Of a stretch of DNA of 5,837 nucleotides, positions 1-5,837 are shown piece by piece. The position numbers and the translations under genes were made by a program. The notes beneath the pieces are model-generated. The model made no database searches and was not told where the DNA came from. It worked only from the letters and a program-made list of their open reading frames with translations. Numbering within the stretch: the first letter of the stretch is position 1; the number at the start of each line of letters is the position of its first letter. The stretch is from Candidatus Rokuibacteriota bacterium (GTDB lineage Bacteria; Methylomirabilota; Methylomirabilia; Rokubacteriales; JACPHL01), in the NCBI GenBank assembly GCA_016188625.1, contig JACPHL010000318.1:1-5837 (forward strand), written 5' to 3'.

Positions 1-600
1 CCGCGGGTCGTCGTGGTGGCGGGAGGGTCCCTCGCCAAGCTGGGCATGAAGTACCGGGCGCACCTGGCGAAGGGGATGCCGATCCTCGAAGACGTGCTGG
101 CCGGGCTGGCCGTGCTGATCGAGCGGGCGGACGGCCGCGAGCCGGTCGTGCGCCTCGACACCCTCGGGCTGCACGCCGTGTCGAGCGGCTCGTCGCAGCA
201 GGCGCTCGTCGAGGCGCTCGTCATGGGGCCGCTCGGGAAGGCCGGCTACCGGTTGACCGAGGTGGACCGGTACGCGACCGAGATGCACAACCCGGAGATC
301 ACCGAGCCGGCGGGCAGCGGGGATGTGCCGCAGGGGAACTACCGCCTCATCGCGGCCCTCGGCGCCCTGAAGGGCGAGATCCCCCGCGACGGCGTGGCCG
401 ATTTCATCGCCGCGCACGGGATGCCCGGGTACGCCCCGACGCAGGGGCACATCGCCTCGGCGGTCTGCTATCTGGCCCATGCCCTCCGGGCCATGCGGAG
501 CGGCAAGATGAAGCGCGCGCTGTTCATGGCGAAGGGGAGCCTGTTCCTCGGGCGCATGACCGCCCTGTCCGACGGCGTGTCGTTTCTGCTGGAGGCCTGA
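1..600 (+). CDS. grdC: Glycine/sarcosine/betaine reductase component C, beta subunit (C-terminal part)
   Basis: The reading frame is open from the first base, so the true start lies outside the window and only 199 residues are seen; the family is about 500 residues long. GrdC is a ketoacyl-synthase-like protein. With GrdD it takes the carboxymethyl group from the selenoprotein GrdA and releases acetyl phosphate in the cytoplasm. The fragment follows the remembered family sequence closely: VAGGSLAKLGMK near residue 6, a PILEDVLAG block, EMHNPEITEPAGSGDVP near residue 95, HGMPGYAPTQGHIAS with the conserved His at residue 150, and KGSLFLGRMTALSDGVSFL at the end. The TQGH histidine may correspond to the active-site His of thiolase-fold enzymes (inference). 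The family call is firm. The natural substrate (glycine, sarcosine, betaine or another amine) cannot be told from this subunit. In Clostridia grdA usually lies upstream of grdB and grdC, so the grdC-grdA order here differs. Confidence 0.93.
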   Translation, partial: PRVVVVAGGSLAKLGMKYRAHLAKGMPILEDVLAGLAVLIERADGREPVVRLDTLGLHAVSSGSSQQALVEALVMGPLGKAGYRLTEVDRYATEMHNPEITEPAGSGDVPQGNYRLIAALGALKGEIPRDGVADFIAAHGMPGYAPTQGHIASAVCYLAHALRAMRSGKMKRALFMAKGSLFLGRMTALSDGVSFLLEA

Positions 601-613: not shown

Positions 614-1075
614 ATGAAGCTGGCGGGGAAGCGGGTGCTCGCCATCGGCGAGCGCGACGGCGTGAACGGGGCGGCCATCGAGGCCTGCGTCAGGAGCGCG
701 GGGGCTGAGGTCCTCTACGTCGAGACGCAGTGCTTCGCCTGAACCGCTGCCGGCGCCATGGACCTTGAGGGTCAAGGTCGAATCAAGCAGGTGGTCGAGC
801 AGGCCGGCACGGAGGACGTCATCGCGGTGCTGGGCGCCAACTCGCCGGACGCGGTGGAGATGTTCGCGCTGACGCTCAAGAGCGGGGACCCCAGCTACGC
901 GGGCCCCCTGGCGGGCGTGGCGCTCGGGATCCCCTCCTTCCACATCCTCGAGCCGGAGATCGCGGCGCAGATCGCCCCGGAGGTGTACCAGCGGGAGCTG
1001 GCGTTGCCCGCGATGGCCATGGACGTGGACGAGGTGATCGGGCCGCTCAAGACGCTCCGGGAAGAGCACCCATGA
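614..1075 (+). CDS. grdA: Glycine reductase protein A, selenoprotein GrdA (UGA read as Sec43)
   Basis: Reading UGA 740-742 as selenocysteine gives 153 residues, about the usual GrdA length. GrdA is the small shared selenoprotein of glycine, sarcosine and betaine reductases. Its selenocysteine takes a carboxymethyl group from component B and passes it to component C, leaving an oxidised Se-S bridge that must be reduced. Visible family marks are the N-terminal GKRVLAIGERDG, an AIEAC helix, the redox motif C40-F-A-U43 followed by TAAGAMDLE, then VIAVLGAN, GDPSYAGPLAGVALG and an HILEPE block. Homology runs unbroken on both sides of the UGA in one frame, so this is recoding rather than a nonsense mutation. 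The gene follows grdC by 13 nt, and its TGA stop overlaps the ATG of the glutaredoxin gene (ATGA), which suggests translational coupling. Thioredoxin normally re-reduces GrdA in Clostridia; none is seen here. Confidence 0.95.
740..742 (+). other. Selenocysteine codon (UGA) of grdA
   Basis: An in-frame TGA falls at residue 43, between C-F-A and T-A-A-G-A-M-D-L. GrdA proteins carry Sec at this point, in the motif CxxU. Confidence 0.94.
761..779 (+). promoter_or_regulatory. Candidate bacterial SECIS hairpin of grdA
   Basis: Positions 761-768 (gaccttga) and 772-779 (tcaaggtc) are perfect reverse complements, giving an 8-bp stem with a GGG loop at 769-771. If the closing A-U pair opens, the loop becomes AGGGU, which contains GU. 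The stem begins 18 nt after the UGA and the loop lies about 27 nt after it, within the spacing known for bacterial SECIS elements recognised by SelB. The hairpin lies inside the coding sequence (residues around MDLEGQGR), as expected in bacteria. Folding was judged by eye. Confidence 0.75.
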
Positions 1076-1344
1076 CGAGCCCGTCCGTCATCATCTACAC
1101 GGGCGTGGGGTGAGTGCCCTGCCACCGAGCGGTAGAGTATCTATCGCAGAGAGGCGTGCCGTTCACGGAGAAGAACGTCCGGAACGATCCGGCCGCCCGG
1201 CAGGAGCTGCTGGCGATGGGGTTCACGTCGGTGCCGCTGCTGCTGATCGGTGCCCGGAGGCTGACCGGGTTCAATCCCGCGGAGATCGAGGCGGCGCTGC
1301 GCGCGTCCGCCCCAACCCCGATGGGGAGTGATCCAGAACCGTAG
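1072..1344 (+). CDS. Glutaredoxin-like selenoprotein with a UxxC active site (UGA read as Sec14)
   Basis: Reading UGA 1111-1113 as selenocysteine gives a 90-residue, single-domain glutaredoxin/NrdH-like protein, a normal length for the family. Visible features are the first strand SVIIYT, the active site U14-V-P-C17 in place of the usual CxxC, the helix HRAVEYLSQRG, the strand VPFTEKNV, D39-PAARQEL, the TSVP turn with the probable cis-proline P55, the strand LLLIG, and a G66-F67 pair with the final helix NPAEIEAAL. Without recoding, the protein would lose its first strand and the active site. The ATG overlaps the grdA stop by 4 nt, so the two selenoproteins are probably translated together. 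The likely role (inference) is to reduce the oxidised Se-S bridge of GrdA, a job done by thioredoxin in Clostridia. Its own reductant (glutathione, a thioredoxin reductase or another) is not visible. Selenocysteine glutaredoxins are known, but this coupling to grdA is unusual. Confidence 0.88.
1111..1113 (+). other. Selenocysteine codon (UGA) of the glutaredoxin-like gene
   Basis: An in-frame TGA lies 13 codons after the ATG, exactly where the first active-site cysteine of a CxxC glutaredoxin belongs. It is followed by V-P-C. The frame stays open from 1072 to the TAG at 1342-1344, and homology continues on both sides. Confidence 0.87.
1129..1147 (+). promoter_or_regulatory. Candidate bacterial SECIS hairpin of the glutaredoxin-like gene
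   Basis: Positions 1129-1135 (gcggtag) pair with 1141-1147 (ctatcgc) over 7 bp, including one G-U pair, and enclose the 5-nt loop AGTAT at 1136-1140. The loop contains GU at 1137-1138, the feature that SelB reads in the E. coli fdhF SECIS. The loop starts 23 nt after the UGA, in the normal range. The stretch 1131-1145 is clearly richer in A/T than the surrounding gene, which fits selection on the RNA structure. Folding was judged by eye. Confidence 0.75.
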
Positions 1345-2143
1345 GACGCCCGGCCGGCGAGCCGTGAGCCGCCCCCAGAGATCCGAGCCGCAGTACTCGC
1401 TGCAATCGCTCGAGCGAGGCATCGAGATCCTCTACCAGCTCGCCGACCGCCCCGCGCGGTCGGTCGAGGAGCTGAGCCGGCTGCTCCGCTGCCCCAGGAG
1501 CACCGTGTACCGCACGCTGGGCATCCTCCGCCGGGCCCAGCTCGTGGACCGCGATCCGGCCTCGCCGGGCTACCGGCTCGGGCTCGGGGTCCTGCGGATG
1601 CAGCGCGCCGCGCTCCAGGCCCTGCCCGTGCGGGACGCGGCGTTCCCGGTCATGCGGGAGCTGGCGGCCCAGTCCGGGGAGTCGGTCGTGCTGACCGTGC
1701 GGCGGGGCGATTTCGGGATCGCGGTGGAGTCGATCGAGAGCTCGGCGCCGGTCCGGGTCGTCCCGGCGCCGGGCGAGAGCTTTCCGCTCCACTGCGGGGC
1801 GCCGATGAAGGCGATCCTGGCGTTCCTCCCTGACGAGGAGATCCGCCAGTACCTCCGCCGGACGCTCGAGCGCTTGACGCCCCGCACCATCACCGATCCG
1901 CGCAGGCTCCGGCGCCACCTCGCCGAGATCCGGGAGCGCGGCTACGCGGAGAGCTGGGAAGAGGTCTACGTGGGCGCCGTGGGCGTGGCGGCGCCGATCG
2001 TGGGGCTCGACGGCCACGCCGTGGCGAGCCTGGGGATCGCGGGCCCCGTCCACCGGATGACCTCCCAGCGGGTCGGCGAGCTGGCGGGGACGGTGATGGC
2101 AGCCGCCAAGGATGTGAGCCGGAGGCTGCAGTTCTCCCGGTAA
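1328..2143 (+). CDS. IclR-family transcriptional regulator
   Basis: The protein has 271 residues, typical for the family. An N-terminal winged helix-turn-helix spans about residues 23-85. It begins YSLQSLERGIEIL, has the recognition helix RSTVYRTLGIL (57-67), and the wing ends GYRLG. The effector-binding domain follows from about residue 95, with HCGAPMKAILA near 155 and a late block GVAAPIVGLDGHAVASLGIAGP. IclR proteins bind palindromic DNA as dimers or tetramers and respond to small organic acids. The GTG at 1328 overlaps the glutaredoxin gene by 17 nt. A second GTG at 1364 (residue 13) would avoid the overlap and still keep the whole HTH; neither has a good ribosome binding site, so the start is uncertain. 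Its place between the selenoprotein pair and the TRAP genes suggests it controls one or both (inference). The ligand is unknown. Confidence 0.92.
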   Translation: MIQNRRTPGRRAVSRPQRSEPQYSLQSLERGIEILYQLADRPARSVEELSRLLRCPRSTVYRTLGILRRAQLVDRDPASPGYRLGLGVLRMQRAALQALPVRDAAFPVMRELAAQSGESVVLTVRRGDFGIAVESIESSAPVRVVPAPGESFPLHCGAPMKAILAFLPDEEIRQYLRRTLERLTPRTITDPRRLRRHLAEIRERGYAESWEEVYVGAVGVAAPIVGLDGHAVASLGIAGPVHRMTSQRVGELAGTVMAAAKDVSRRLQFSR

Positions 2144-2308
2144 GCGGTCTCAGGCGTCCGGCCGGAGGCGGGCACCGGCGGGGCGCTTTAGGCACGAGGC
2201 CGCGACGCCGGTCGAGAAAGGGAAGCCATGGCCCGGTCGGAAGGGGGGTGAGACTGTCCTGATCTCGGGACGTGCTCGGGGCACCAGATGTCCGAAGGCG
2301 GAACAAGA

Positions 2309-2314
2309 AGGGAG
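2309..2314 (+). promoter_or_regulatory. Ribosome binding site of the TRAP binding-protein gene
   Basis: AGGGAG lies 6 nt before the ATG at 2321. It favours that start over the in-frame ATG at 2288, which would place a charged stretch (SEGGTRRETE) ahead of the signal peptide. Confidence 0.75.
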
Positions 2315-2320
2315 ACCGAA

Positions 2321-3433
2321 ATGAGAAGGACAGCGTTCCTGGCGGTTACGACGCTCCTCGTCGCCGGTGTCATCATGATGGGTGTGCCGGCGACCGTTCC
2401 GGCTCAGTCCAAACCCATCGTCCTGAAGATGCAGAGCCCGGTCCCCGTGGCCAGCGTGATCTTCGAGAACTTCAAGATGTACGCGGAGATGGTCGAGAAG
2501 ATGTCCGGCGGGCGGATCAAGATCGAGGCGCTCCCTGCGGGCGCGGTGGTCGGCGCGTTCGAGATCCTGGACGCCACCTCCCGGGGCGTCCTGGATGGTG
2601 CGCACTCCTGGGTCGGCTACTGGGTCGGGAAGAACCCCGCCGCGGGGATCATCGCCGGCGCCCCGGCAGGCTCGTTCGGGATGGATCAGCTGGACTACTA
2701 CGGCTGGTTCCACGAGGGCGGCGGCATCGAGCTGCTGCAGGAGTTCTACGACCTCGTGGGGGCGAACGTGGTGACGGTCGGGCCGGTGGCGGGCGTGGGC
2801 CCGCAGCTTCTCGGGTGGTTCAAGAAGCCCGTCAAGAGCCTGGACGAGTTCAAGAAGATGAAGTACCGCGTCCCCGGGATCGCCGCCGACGTGTACAAGG
2901 AGATGGGGGTGAGCGTGGTGACACTGGCCGGCGGCGAGATCCTGCCGGCCGGGGAGCGGGGCGTCCTCGACGGCGCCGAGTGGCTGACCCCCGCCGACGA
3001 CATCAAGCTGGGCTTCCACACCGTCTGGAAGTACATGATCACGCCGGCGTTCCACGACTACGTGCCGACGTGGGACGTGTACTTCAACAAGGAAGTCTGG
3101 AAGAAGATCCCGGCGGATCTCCGGGAGATCCTCAAGGGGGCCGCGATGGCGACGTCCTTCCGCCACTGGCTGCGCTTCAACCGGCAGAACGCGGAGTCCC
3201 TGGAGGAGCTGAAGAAGCTGGGGGTCACCGTGGCGAAGACGCCCGACGAGATCAACATGGCGTTCCTGAAGGCCTGGGAGAAGGTCGCCGAGCGCGAGGC
3301 CGGGAAGCATCCGTTCGTCAGGAAGGTCCTCGACTCCCAGAGGAAGTACGCGGCCTCTATGCAGACGTACCGGCTCAGCGTGAACCCTCCGTACGAGTAC
3401 GCCGCCGGCTACTTCCTGAAGCAGCAGAAGTAA
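2321..3433 (+). CDS. dctP: TRAP transporter periplasmic substrate-binding protein, DctP family
   Basis: The protein has 370 residues from the ATG chosen by its ribosome binding site. It starts with a Sec signal peptide: RR at 2-3, a hydrophobic core to about residue 22, and probable cleavage after VPA at 28. The mature protein shows the DctP fold: VLKMQSPVP at the first strand, GGRIKIEALPAGAVVGAFEILDA, then KMKYRVPG with R183, the arginine that in this family binds the substrate carboxylate. GGEILPAGERGVLDGAEW (E206, W221) and TPADDIKLGF follow. The last motifs resemble the TakP-like, 2-oxoacid and monocarboxylate branch (recalled, not searched), so a small organic acid is the likely ligand; the exact one is unknown. 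It hands substrate to the DctQM permease encoded downstream. The 177-nt gap before it suggests its own promoter, although none can be pointed to. Confidence 0.93.
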   Translation: MRRTAFLAVTTLLVAGVIMMGVPATVPAQSKPIVLKMQSPVPVASVIFENFKMYAEMVEKMSGGRIKIEALPAGAVVGAFEILDATSRGVLDGAHSWVGYWVGKNPAAGIIAGAPAGSFGMDQLDYYGWFHEGGGIELLQEFYDLVGANVVTVGPVAGVGPQLLGWFKKPVKSLDEFKKMKYRVPGIAADVYKEMGVSVVTLAGGEILPAGERGVLDGAEWLTPADDIKLGFHTVWKYMITPAFHDYVPTWDVYFNKEVWKKIPADLREILKGAAMATSFRHWLRFNRQNAESLEELKKLGVTVAKTPDEINMAFLKAWEKVAEREAGKHPFVRKVLDSQRKYAASMQTYRLSVNPPYEYAAGYFLKQQK

Positions 3434-3449
3434 CCCGGAAGGGCATGCG

Positions 3450-3487
3450 ACACGCGGCGGCGGGGCGCTCACCCCGCTGCCGCGTGT
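3450..3487 (+). promoter_or_regulatory. Strong intergenic hairpin between binding-protein and permease genes
   Basis: Arms 3450-3465 and 3472-3487 pair over 16 bp, with a single G-U pair and a 6-nt loop (cgctca). No U-run follows, so it is not a classical intrinsic terminator. Its position just after the binding-protein stop and before dctQ fits an mRNA-stabilising or partial-attenuation element. Such an element would keep binding-protein transcripts more abundant than permease transcripts, as reported for other binding-protein transport operons (inference). A smaller 6-bp stem (3493-3498 with 3515-3520) follows it. Confidence 0.7.
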
Positions 3488-3525
3488 GCGTGCGCGGGAA
3501 GGTCGCGCGAACGGCCCGCGGCGCA

Positions 3526-3546
3526 GGGGGGGGAGGGGCATGAGGG
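3526..3546 (+). promoter_or_regulatory. G-rich ribosome binding site of dctQ with quadruplex-forming pattern
   Basis: Eight G in a row (3526-3533), an A and four G lie directly before the ATG at 3540. They provide the GGAGG core and rule out the upstream GTG at 3486, which lies in the hairpin arm. Four runs of three G with loops of 2, 1 and 6 nt (3526-3528, 3531-3533, 3535-3537, 3544-3546) satisfy the usual quadruplex pattern and enclose the start codon. Whether it folds in RNA is unknown. Confidence 0.6.
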
Positions 3547-4100
3547 CGCCTCCGGAATCGCTGCTGAGAACGGTACGGGTCATCGATCGGCTCATCGGGG
3601 AGGGCTCCGGCCGGCTCTTCTGCTGGCTCGTCGTCCCGCTCACGCTCGGGCTGACCTACGAGGTCATCGCCCGGTACGTCTTCAGCGCGCCCACCATCTG
3701 GGCCTACGACATCGCCTACATGCTCTACGGCTCCCACTTCATGCTGGGGGCCGCCTACACGCTGTACAGGCAGGGGCACATCCGCACCGACATCTTCTAC
3801 GAGCGCTTTTCGCCGCGGACGCAGGGGATCATCGACGCCACGCTCTACGTCCTCTTCTTCTTCCCCGGGATGGCCTACATCTTCCTGGCCGGCTTCGAGG
3901 AGGCCCGCCTCGCCTGGAAGGTCCTGGAGGTGTCGGACGCGAGCCCCTGGCGCCCGCCCATCTACCCGTTCAAGACGGCCATTCCGGTCGCGACCGCCCT
4001 GCTGATCGTCCAGGGGGTCTCCGAGTTCCTCAAGAGTCTCTACGCCGCCCTGAGCGGCCGGCGGCTTCTGCCGTCCGGGATGACCGGTCATGAGTCCTGA
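3540..4100 (+). CDS. dctQ: TRAP transporter small permease, DctQ family
   Basis: The protein has 186 residues, normal for DctQ, with four predicted membrane segments at about 26-48, 54-76, 97-119 and 145-167. Typical family marks are EVIARYVFSAPTIWAYDIAY at the end of segment 1 and start of segment 2, the polar loop QGHIRTDIFYERFSPR (78-93), and SPWRPPIYPFKTAIPVA before the last segment. DctQ sits beside DctM in the inner membrane and is needed for assembly or docking of the binding protein. The start at 3540 is chosen for its G-rich ribosome binding site; an earlier GTG (3486) would add 18 basic, non-conserved residues. The 3' end overlaps dctM by 11 nt, which indicates translational coupling. 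Confidence 0.92.
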   Translation: MRAPPESLLRTVRVIDRLIGEGSGRLFCWLVVPLTLGLTYEVIARYVFSAPTIWAYDIAYMLYGSHFMLGAAYTLYRQGHIRTDIFYERFSPRTQGIIDATLYVLFFFPGMAYIFLAGFEEARLAWKVLEVSDASPWRPPIYPFKTAIPVATALLIVQGVSEFLKSLYAALSGRRLLPSGMTGHES

Positions 4101-5406
4101 ATACCTGGGGCTGATCCTGCTGGCCGCGCTGTTGTTCGGGATCTTCGTGGGGTTCCCGATCGCGTTCACCCTCATCATCCTGGCCATCGTCTTCGGCTAT
4201 ATCGGGTTCGGCGGGAAGGTGTTCTACCTGACGGTGCTCCAGATCCTCGGGCTCATGAAGGAGGAAACCCTGGCCGCGGTGCCGCTCTTCATCTTCATGG
4301 GGCACGTGCTGGAACAGGCCGGGCTCATGGAGCGACTCTTCAAGGCCTTCCAGTTCGTGCTGGGCGGGGTCCGGGGGTCGCTCTACCTCGGCGTGCTGCT
4401 GACCGCGACGGTCTTCGCTACGGCGACGGGCATCATCGGGGCCTCCGTCACCGTGATGGGCCTCCTGGCGGTCCCGGCCATGATGCGGAGCGGCTATGAC
4501 GTCCGGCTCTCGGCGGGGACGATCACCGCCGGCGGGTGCCTGGGGATCCTGATCCCGCCGAGCGTCATGCTGGTCCTCCTGGGCCCGGTAGCCGGCGTCT
4601 CCGTCGTCCACCTCTTCGCGGCGGCCATCGTCCCGGGCCTGATCCTGTCGGCCCTGTTCATCGGCTACACCATGGTCCGGTGTTACATCGATCCGACGCT
4701 CGGGCCGCCGCTCCCGCCGGAGGAGCGGGCCGCGTCGGTCGGCGCGGTCGTGCGGGAGTTCGCCGCCGGCATCGTGCCCGTGGGCTTCATCATCTTCGCC
4801 TCCCTCGGGAGCATCCTGTTCGGGCTGGCGACCCCGACGGAGGGAGCGGCGATGGCGGCCTCGGGATCGCTGCTGCTCACGTTCCTCTACCGGCGGTTCA
4901 CGTTCGCGCTGCTCCGGGATGCGGCGCTCAGGACGCTCCAGACCTCCAGCATGATCCTGTTCCTCGCGGTCGCCTCCAACATCTACGGATCGGTCTTCGC
5001 CCGGTTGGGGACGGCCACGTGGATCACCGAGACGATGCTGTCCCTGGCGCTGCCGCCGGTGGGGCTGATCGTCCTCCTGATGGCGGTCATCTTCATCCTC
5101 GGCTGGCCCCTCGAGTGGCCGGCCATCGTCCTCATCTTCCTGCCCATCTTCCTGCCCGTGATCAACAAGCTGGGCTTCGACCTCGTCTGGTTCTGCACGC
5201 TGGTGGCGGTGAACCTTCAGACGGCGTTCCTCTCCCCGCCGGTGGCGATGGCCGCGTACTACCTCAAGGGGGTCGCCCCGCAGTGGGATCTCCTCAAGAT
5301 CTACCGGGGGATGTTCGAGTTCATGCTCCTCCAGCTCGTGGGGCTGGCCCTCGTGTTCCTCTTCCCCGAGCTCGCGCTCTGGCTCCCGCGTGTGCTGTTC
5401 AGGTAA
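4090..5406 (+). CDS. dctM: TRAP transporter large permease, DctM family
   Basis: The protein has 438 residues, the usual DctM length, and is hydrophobic throughout with about 12 predicted membrane segments. It is the transport subunit, a sodium-driven secondary importer that receives substrate from the periplasmic binding protein. Recognisable blocks are GFPIAFTLIILAIVFGY near the N-terminus, AAVPLFIFMGHVLEQAG, GILIPPSVMLVLLGPVAG (P156-P157-S158), the second-repeat motif ATPTEGAA (P249-T250-E251), and NLQTAFLSPPVAMAAYYLKG from N375. The last block resembles the subgroup often labelled mannitol/chloroaromatic, a label that says little about the real substrate. It begins inside the end of dctQ (overlap 4090-4100) and ends 60 nt before the IorA-like gene. 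Confidence 0.95.
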   Translation: MSPEYLGLILLAALLFGIFVGFPIAFTLIILAIVFGYIGFGGKVFYLTVLQILGLMKEETLAAVPLFIFMGHVLEQAGLMERLFKAFQFVLGGVRGSLYLGVLLTATVFATATGIIGASVTVMGLLAVPAMMRSGYDVRLSAGTITAGGCLGILIPPSVMLVLLGPVAGVSVVHLFAAAIVPGLILSALFIGYTMVRCYIDPTLGPPLPPEERAASVGAVVREFAAGIVPVGFIIFASLGSILFGLATPTEGAAMAASGSLLLTFLYRRFTFALLRDAALRTLQTSSMILFLAVASNIYGSVFARLGTATWITETMLSLALPPVGLIVLLMAVIFILGWPLEWPAIVLIFLPIFLPVINKLGFDLVWFCTLVAVNLQTAFLSPPVAMAAYYLKGVAPQWDLLKIYRGMFEFMLLQLVGLALVFLFPELALWLPRVLFR

Positions 5407-5454
5407 TCGCCGGCGCGGGGCGGGCGGTACCCGGAGCGCCTGACCGGCGCGCCC

Positions 5455-5461
5455 GAGGAGG
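5455..5461 (+). promoter_or_regulatory. Ribosome binding site of the IorA-like gene
   Basis: GAGGAGG lies 5 nt before the ATG at 5467. It is the strongest such site in the window and fixes the start of the truncated last gene, including its N-terminal extension. Confidence 0.8.
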
Positions 5462-5466
5462 TTTCT

Positions 5467-5837
5467 ATGCCTCGAAATCCGTCGTACCAGGTCACGGAGT
5501 ACGTGGACCGGCCGTACGAGAAGTTCTCCCGGAGCGATCTGGCGGTGGATCGGCCCGGCGCCGAGCTGCTCATGACGTGCAACGACGCCCTGGCCCGCGG
5601 CGCGATCGAGGCCGGCGTGCGGGTCGCCGCCTGCTATCCCGGCGCGCCGGTCACCTACGTGCTGGAGGCCCTGGCGGCCGCGGCGCGGACGTTTCCGGAG
5701 ATGCACGTCGAGTGGTCGGCCAACGAGAAGGTCTCGTACGAGGTCGCGCTCGGCGCGGCCATGGGCGGCGCCCGCTCGATCGCCGTCATGAAGGACGTGG
5801 GCCTCGGGTGGATCCTGGACCCCCTCCTCTCCTCGAC
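5467..5837 (+). CDS. iorA: Indolepyruvate ferredoxin oxidoreductase alpha-like protein (N-terminal part)
   Basis: The frame is open to the right edge, so only the first 123 residues of a protein usually 600 residues or more are seen. The family uses thiamine diphosphate and Fe-S clusters to oxidise 2-oxoacids to acyl-CoA with ferredoxin. The fragment matches the pyrimidine-binding domain: NDALARGAIEAGV (39-51), YPGAPVTYVLE (57-67), VEWSANEKVSYEVALGAAMGGAR (81-103) and MKDVGLG (108-114). About 33 residues precede the domain, longer than the short leader usual in IorA. GN is replaced by C38-N39, and the block after MKDVGL (GWILDPLL) departs from the usual NVAADPLM. It may be a paralogue acting on another 2-oxoacid. 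It lies 60 nt after dctM with no terminator between, so it may share the transcript. The family call is fairly firm; the substrate is not. Confidence 0.82.
   Translation, partial: MPRNPSYQVTEYVDRPYEKFSRSDLAVDRPGAELLMTCNDALARGAIEAGVRVAACYPGAPVTYVLEALAAAARTFPEMHVEWSANEKVSYEVALGAAMGGARSIAVMKDVGLGWILDPLLSS

Follow-up and report, generated by a model that had tools for sequence, protein, structure and literature searches.

A selenocysteine redoxin, with selenocysteine (Sec) predicted at codon 14, is encoded directly behind grdA at positions 1072-1344 of the window, by which we mean the whole stretch of DNA analysed, an entire contig (C140) of 5,837 bases. Comparison with related sequences confirmed this assignment. 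On balance, we lean towards the view that the protein is a Sec-redoxin of a family associated with ferredoxin-thioredoxin reductase (FTR) and that it was recruited to reduce GrdA, a role predicted from gene order and sequence.

The source is a 2.6-Mb MAG of the order Rokubacteriales (344 contigs, 84% complete), here called G000, and it was the sole genome of its own family in the comparison. The contig carries, in order, the 3' end of grdC, grdA, the redoxin gene, an IclR regulator gene, the genes of a TRAP transporter (DctP, DctQ, DctM), and the start of an indolepyruvate-ferredoxin-oxidoreductase-like gene (Table 1). The GrdA translation reads MKLAGKRV...CFAUTAAGAMDLE.... As the initial annotation had stated, the redoxin gene overlaps the grdA stop by 4 nt, with its ATG at 1072 inside the ATGA, an arrangement typical of translational coupling and of an operon junction. 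All the genes at 1328-5837 lie on the same strand as the grd genes, and they may be relevant to the substrate of the reductase or to electrons from ferredoxin. Another contig of this genome, C341, ends with grdE and the start of grdB (L141), which may be the upstream part that the operon in the window lacks.

Table 1. Positions of the features in the grd part of the window
Feature	Positions	Strand	Basis
grdC, 3' part, truncated by the contig start; beta subunit of glycine/sarcosine/betaine reductase component C	1..600	+	NCBIfam NF040746, 1.7e-89, profile positions 278-474 of 477
grdA, encoding selenoprotein A of 153 aa with Sec at codon 43	614..1075	+	PF04723 (Pfam GRDA), 1.2e-52; NCBIfam NF040748 above cut-off
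UGA for Sec43 of GrdA (CFAUTAAGA)	740..742	+	translation
bSECIS-like hairpin of grdA, 8-bp stem, GGG loop	761..779	+	fold
ATGA, redoxin start codon within the grdA stop, 4-nt overlap	1072..1075	+	sequence
Selenocysteine redoxin of the glutaredoxin/NrdH type (90 aa; active site GUVPC)	1072..1344	+	PF00462, 3e-13; 22 Rokubacterial homologues
UGA for predicted Sec14 of the redoxin	1111..1113	+	conserved UGA
bSECIS hairpin of the redoxin, 15 nt downstream of the UGA; stem of 8 bp with a GUA apical loop	1129..1147	+	fold; covariation
IclR-family regulator gene; start codon uncertain, the listed one giving a 17-nt overlap with the 3' end of the redoxin gene	1328..2143	+	PF01614, 1.9e-43

Selenocysteine in the redoxin

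The redoxin frame runs from the ATG to a TAG at 1342-1344, contains a single in-frame TGA, at codon 14, and begins MTSPSVIIYTGVGUVPCHRAVEYLSQRG.... A close form of the protein was present in 23 of 59 Rokubacteriales genomes, the window genome included, and the 22 other homologues, which are 51-67% identical to it, all have TGA at the same codon. Comparison with nine relatives gave dN/dS values of ~0.2-0.55, with the sequence before and after the TGA both under purifying selection.

The hairpin that follows this codon is also conserved. Over 26 sequences, 99.5% of its cells were paired, three of the eight pairs had changed on both sides, and the covariation score was reached by none of 500 shuffles. 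Its codons were nearly invariant in the nine comparisons, versus 33-59% of synonymous sites differing overall. Because the folding energy by itself was not beyond that of shuffles, the case for a SECIS element is carried by covariation rather than by energy. The energy of the grdA hairpin was likewise not beyond shuffles by itself, and Rfam gave no match anywhere in the window, SECIS included.

The Sec machinery, on which the initial annotation had made its reading depend, was located in the window genome: a single contig carries SelB (over cut-off), tRNA-Sec, and a SelA-like ORF that precedes selB and was assigned as SelA by reading its sequence. Outside the Rokubacteriales, the redoxin has Sec in Entotheonella, delta-type MAGs, Rubrobacter, and Chloroflexota and Cys in Tissierellia (L104, L105, L114), at L194, and in others. 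Thus, the U/C alternation at residue 14 for which that annotation had proposed a search does exist. It had also looked to homologues with neither Cys nor Sec at the active position as evidence against its proposal; none was found among those aligned.

We consider it most improbable that the gene is an artefact, produced either by reading through a chance TGA or by a chimeric contig that joins grdA to an unrelated redoxin gene. The direct adjacency was seen once, in the one genome of its family and in a MAG of 344 contigs, but the protein, the UGA, and the SECIS element are conserved in 22 Rokubacterial relatives, and the 4-nt ATGA is a typical operon junction. Given this conservation, chance read-through is excluded in practice.

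Fold and active site

The redoxin matched the Pfam family Glutaredoxin (PF00462) with 50.2 bits against a curated cut-off of 22.9. The best family models, TIGR02196 (YruB; 1.3e-16, score 60.8 versus a cut-off of 88.55) and TIGR02194 (NrdH; 2.1e-14, 53.5 versus 85.75), scored below their cut-offs, as did the UXX-star model NF041212 (40.6 bits versus 66). An AlphaFold (AF2) model of the protein had a pLDDT of 87.8. The closest structure to this model was 7c10 (Z 14.7, rmsd 1.0 over 75 residues, 40% identity), which we take to be cGrx1, the selenoprotein glutaredoxin of Clostridium (Alkaliphilus) oremlandii, and 7c10 was also the nearest solved structure by sequence (3e-13). The next matches were BC3987 and NrdH redoxins (Z ~13) and a fusion of glutaredoxin with ferredoxin disulfide reductase, 7pwe (Z 12.1). 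As modelled, the fold is NrdH/cGrx1-like. The earlier assignment of a glutaredoxin fold with UVPC in place of CxxC was borne out by the Pfam match, the same-codon UGA of the 22 relatives, and the covarying bSECIS. Classical glutaredoxins bind glutathione through a GG motif. NrdH has TGFNP instead of the glutathione-binding motif and is recharged by thioredoxin reductase; the window redoxin likewise has TGFNP at this place.

In the tree, the redoxin fell in the Rokubacteria/Entotheonella FTR-linked set (26 rows, support 98/98); the FTR-linked Sec-redoxin clade is a grouping defined in this analysis. The second active-site Cys is retained throughout the clade. The active site of the window redoxin is GUVPC, and the 25 other members have UGPC, UGAC, UGGC, or UTGC. 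The ordinary TrxA of the window genome has WCGPC. In the literature (PMC10880999), the thioredoxins of clostridial grd operons are described as dedicated to GrdA and as having an atypical [G/S]C[V/E]PC active site, not WCGPC; the Tissierellia grd thioredoxin has TCEPC. The fit of GUVPC to the motif of the grd-dedicated TrxA is suggestive only. UVPC was rejected as a signature exclusive to grd linkage, given that L027 and L030 have UVPC in genomes without a grdA match and that two other grd-linked redoxins have UGPC. Matches in a plasmid collection proved to be ordinary redoxins with <60% identity.

The weak matches to UXX-star families bear on another reading, that the protein handles selenium or a metal(loid) in the manner of UXX-star proteins, for which a review suggests metal binding (PMC13188914), and that its linkage to grd reflects a common need for selenium. 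We regard this as very unlikely: the UXX-star score is below cut-off, the second active-site Cys is kept across the clade, and the FTR and trxB neighbours of its relatives point to dithiol chemistry. Two further Sec redoxins, with QPGUASC, are encoded in the window genome (L057 on G000:C9 and L058 on G000:C264); the one on C9 scored 54.8, below the UXX-star cut-off of 66.

Linkage to ferredoxin-thioredoxin reductase and to grd genes

In Rokubacteria, the redoxin gene is typically followed by a gene with the cysteines of the FTR catalytic chain (CPC..CAC..CHC), which adjoins it in 19 of the 23 carrier genomes. Matches to PF02943 were present in 19 of 59 Rokubacteriales genomes, every one beside the Sec-redoxin (Fisher 6e-12). 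In genus g7, trxB, the redoxin gene, and the FTR gene are consecutive, and in two Entotheonella genomes the FTR gene is convergent to the redoxin gene, with a Sec ArsC-like gene upstream. This ArsC-like protein (KGUSTC / KGUTTC) is encoded just 5' of the Sec-redoxin at L090 and L092 (Entotheonella and a related MAG), and that of L090 matches NF041106.

A similar arrangement was found in the Chloroflexota set, 149 genomes related to a Chloroflexota MAG: an FTR gene of the double-Sec type lies near 24 of the 25 Sec redoxin forms (GUGPC). Those FTRs that we read have Sec at both catalytic positions (CPU..CPC..CIU), and the one tested matched NF041072 (FtrB_double_U) with 221 bits versus 160. At L171-L193 and L195, a two-gene, three-Sec module is thus conserved in 24 genomes, with Sec read at both positions in several. 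The first report of a double-Sec FTR came from GOS data (PMC2398784). The two FTR-linked sets, Rokubacteria/Entotheonella and Chloroflexota, are adjacent in the tree (90/83). The window genome had no PF02943 match either beside the redoxin or elsewhere in its 84% complete assembly. The simplest reading of these sequences is that the linkage to FTR came first and that to grdA was a later move.

Among 95 genomes of the phylum, we found 16 grdA genes, and the redoxin is directly behind grdA only in the window; none of the 15 other loci, two of which end soon after grdA, has it beside grdA. Other carriers of redoxin relatives supplied nine more grd loci, none with the redoxin there; one of them, in Tissierellia, has the clostridial order trxB-trxA-grdE-grdA-grdB. 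The initial annotation had proposed looking for grdA followed by a glutaredoxin-like ORF in other genomes. Within the phylum nothing of the kind came to light, but grd-linked redoxins did appear in a Chloroflexota MAG and a relative of it. In the Chloroflexota MAG (L107), a Sec-redoxin gene lies ~580 nt upstream of a Sec-grdB, which is followed by two grdE genes. In a relative of this MAG, G119, one strand carries grdC-grdA, a double-Sec FTR gene, grdE, transporter genes, and grdB-grdE, and the Sec-redoxin gene, encoded on the opposite strand, separates grdA from the FTR gene, so that grdC-grdA, redoxin, FTR, and grdE fall within ~5 kb. The whole locus (L208, G119:C1:550000-569999) is a large grd cluster with grdC, grdA, grdB, two grdE genes, transporter genes, the double-Sec FTR, and the Sec-redoxin. 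Since the redoxins of L107 and G119 (L177) occupy neighbouring positions in the tree, their grd linkage may represent one event.

Carriers of the redoxin are enriched in grdA. In the Chloroflexota set, 5 of the 25 genomes that carry the Sec-redoxin have grdA versus 0 of 31 without it (one-sided Fisher ~0.014, uncorrected for relatedness), and in Rokubacteriales the redoxin was present in 9 of 14 grdA genomes versus 14 of 45 others (p 0.03, also uncorrected for relatedness). Most carriers have no grdA match: 14 of the 23 in Rokubacteriales and 20 of the 25 in the Chloroflexota set.

These distributions bring in the main rival to a role as GrdA reductant, one with which a thiol/selenol redoxin is equally compatible. 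The protein could be a general-purpose Sec-redoxin of the FTR system, acting on other clients such as peroxiredoxins, ArsC-like selenoproteins, or ribonucleotide reductase, and could have come to lie behind grdA by rearrangement, with GrdA not a specific client. The usual FTR neighbour in Rokubacteria and the Chloroflexota set, the placement of every PF02943 match of the 59 genomes beside the redoxin, the absence of grdA from most carriers, and the Sec ArsC-like neighbour in Entotheonella all argue for it. The 4-nt overlap with grdA, two more grd linkages in another lineage, the enrichment of carriers in grdA, and the lack of an FTR match in the window genome (84% complete) argue against it. 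We judge this alternative to be a serious one, though the less probable.

A client within the reductase other than GrdA is unlikely. Reduction of GrdB (Sec-Cys, UxxC) or of the component-B complex would suit L107, where Sec-grdB is the nearest grd gene, and the window genome, where grdE and the grdB start end another contig. The overlap in the window is with grdA, however, and in the clostridial scheme electrons pass from thioredoxin to GrdA and then to GrdB (PMC3091704).

Proposed role and comparison with known systems

The initial annotation had proposed that the redoxin replaces thioredoxin as the reductant of GrdA. Its premise, the role of thioredoxin in Clostridia, agrees with the Tissierellia gene order and with TrxA3/TrxB3 of the C. 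difficile grd operon, which are described as required for GrdA reduction (PMC10880999). The proposal itself gained from the overlap, the grd linkage in L107 and G119, and the grdA enrichment; it lost ground to an adjacency unique in the phylum and to FTR as the usual partner. The ordinary TrxA of the window genome and the UGPC of the other grd-linked redoxins also speak against it. Because the adjacency is unique in the phylum, 14 of 23 Rokubacterial carriers have no grdA match, and FTR is the usual partner, GrdA is probably a recruited client rather than the ancestral one.

In the mechanism that we favour, recruitment to GrdA, a Sec-containing NrdH/cGrx1-like redoxin would be translated together with GrdA and pass electrons to it, so reducing the Se-S bridge that remains after every turnover, and would stand in for the dedicated thioredoxin of clostridial grd operons. 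The older electron source of the subfamily was probably the FTR catalytic chain, with electrons passing from ferredoxin to FTR to the Sec-redoxin. Since no FTR was found in the window genome, the candidates for recharging the redoxin there are thioredoxin reductase and an FTR that the assembly lacks. We infer both the flow of electrons from redoxin to GrdA and the identity of the upstream reductase. The best thioredoxin reductase copy of this genome (L145, G000:C147:3667-4569) has an in-frame TGA (URGVSTCATC) where E. coli-type enzymes have G; because it is a single-base change from GGA, this TGA is probably an error or a nonsense mutation. A Sec-to-Sec relay is not unprecedented: in Clostridium oremlandii, a Sec-glutaredoxin acts as the reductant of Sec-MsrA (Kim 2011, cited in PMC4333827).

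In the non-clostridial grd loci surveyed (Methylomirabilota, Entotheonella, delta-type MAGs, and Chloroflexota), a reductant is wanting, because we found no trxB and, apart from a TrxC-like gene in G003, no trxA. That gene, upstream of grdC, was rejected as a grd thioredoxin: it is TrxC-like, has WCGPC, and adjoins a gene that reads as clpB. The clostridial thioredoxin pair that recharges GrdA, by comparison, sits in the grd operon. A Sec-redoxin that overlaps grdA and whose relatives are tied to ferredoxin-dependent reductases is a candidate driver of non-clostridial reductases of the glycine/sarcosine/betaine type. More tentatively, and with rather low confidence, we suggest a line outside Clostridia from ferredoxin to FTR (both catalytic residues being Sec in the Chloroflexota set), then to the Sec-redoxin, GrdA (Sec), and GrdB (Sec). 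If so, GrdA-type reductive energy metabolism would be fed by ferredoxin, not NADPH, and the window would show this line in compact form, the redoxin having been incorporated into the grdA operon.

Sec-glutaredoxins as a family were already known, as the initial annotation had said (PMC1794560), and both the redoxin family and its Sec insertion are of known kinds. The coupling to grdA, which that annotation took to be new, and the FTR/Sec-redoxin module appear new: within a partial coverage of the literature, which took in work on glycine reductase and glutaredoxin, we found no report of either. With this module, the double-Sec FTR family reported in 2008 gains a conserved partner.

Among known systems, TrxA3/TrxB3 of Clostridia resemble the window arrangement in placing a small redoxin in a grd operon, with an active-site motif that GUVPC fits (PMC10880999), but they belong to the thioredoxin family (PF00085), use Cys, and have their own TrxB in the operon. 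The double-Sec FtrB (NF041072) and the Desulfotalea psychrophila fusion 7pwe couple FTR-type reductases to Grx-type redoxins; unlike these, the window redoxin adjoins grdA, in a genome where no FTR was found. The UXX-star families (NF041212, NF041114, NF041211) are also small Sec Grx-like proteins; the window redoxin differs in its score below cut-off and its retained second Cys. The NrdH/YruB redoxins (TIGR02194, TIGR02196) are small CxxC redoxins and gave the best-scoring models, but the window redoxin is under both curated cut-offs and has Sec in its active site. Nearest in both sequence and fold is cGrx1, itself a selenoprotein redoxin that serves a selenoprotein, MsrA; unlike cGrx1, the window redoxin adjoins the gene of its candidate client, grdA, has UVPC, and belongs to an FTR-linked subfamily.
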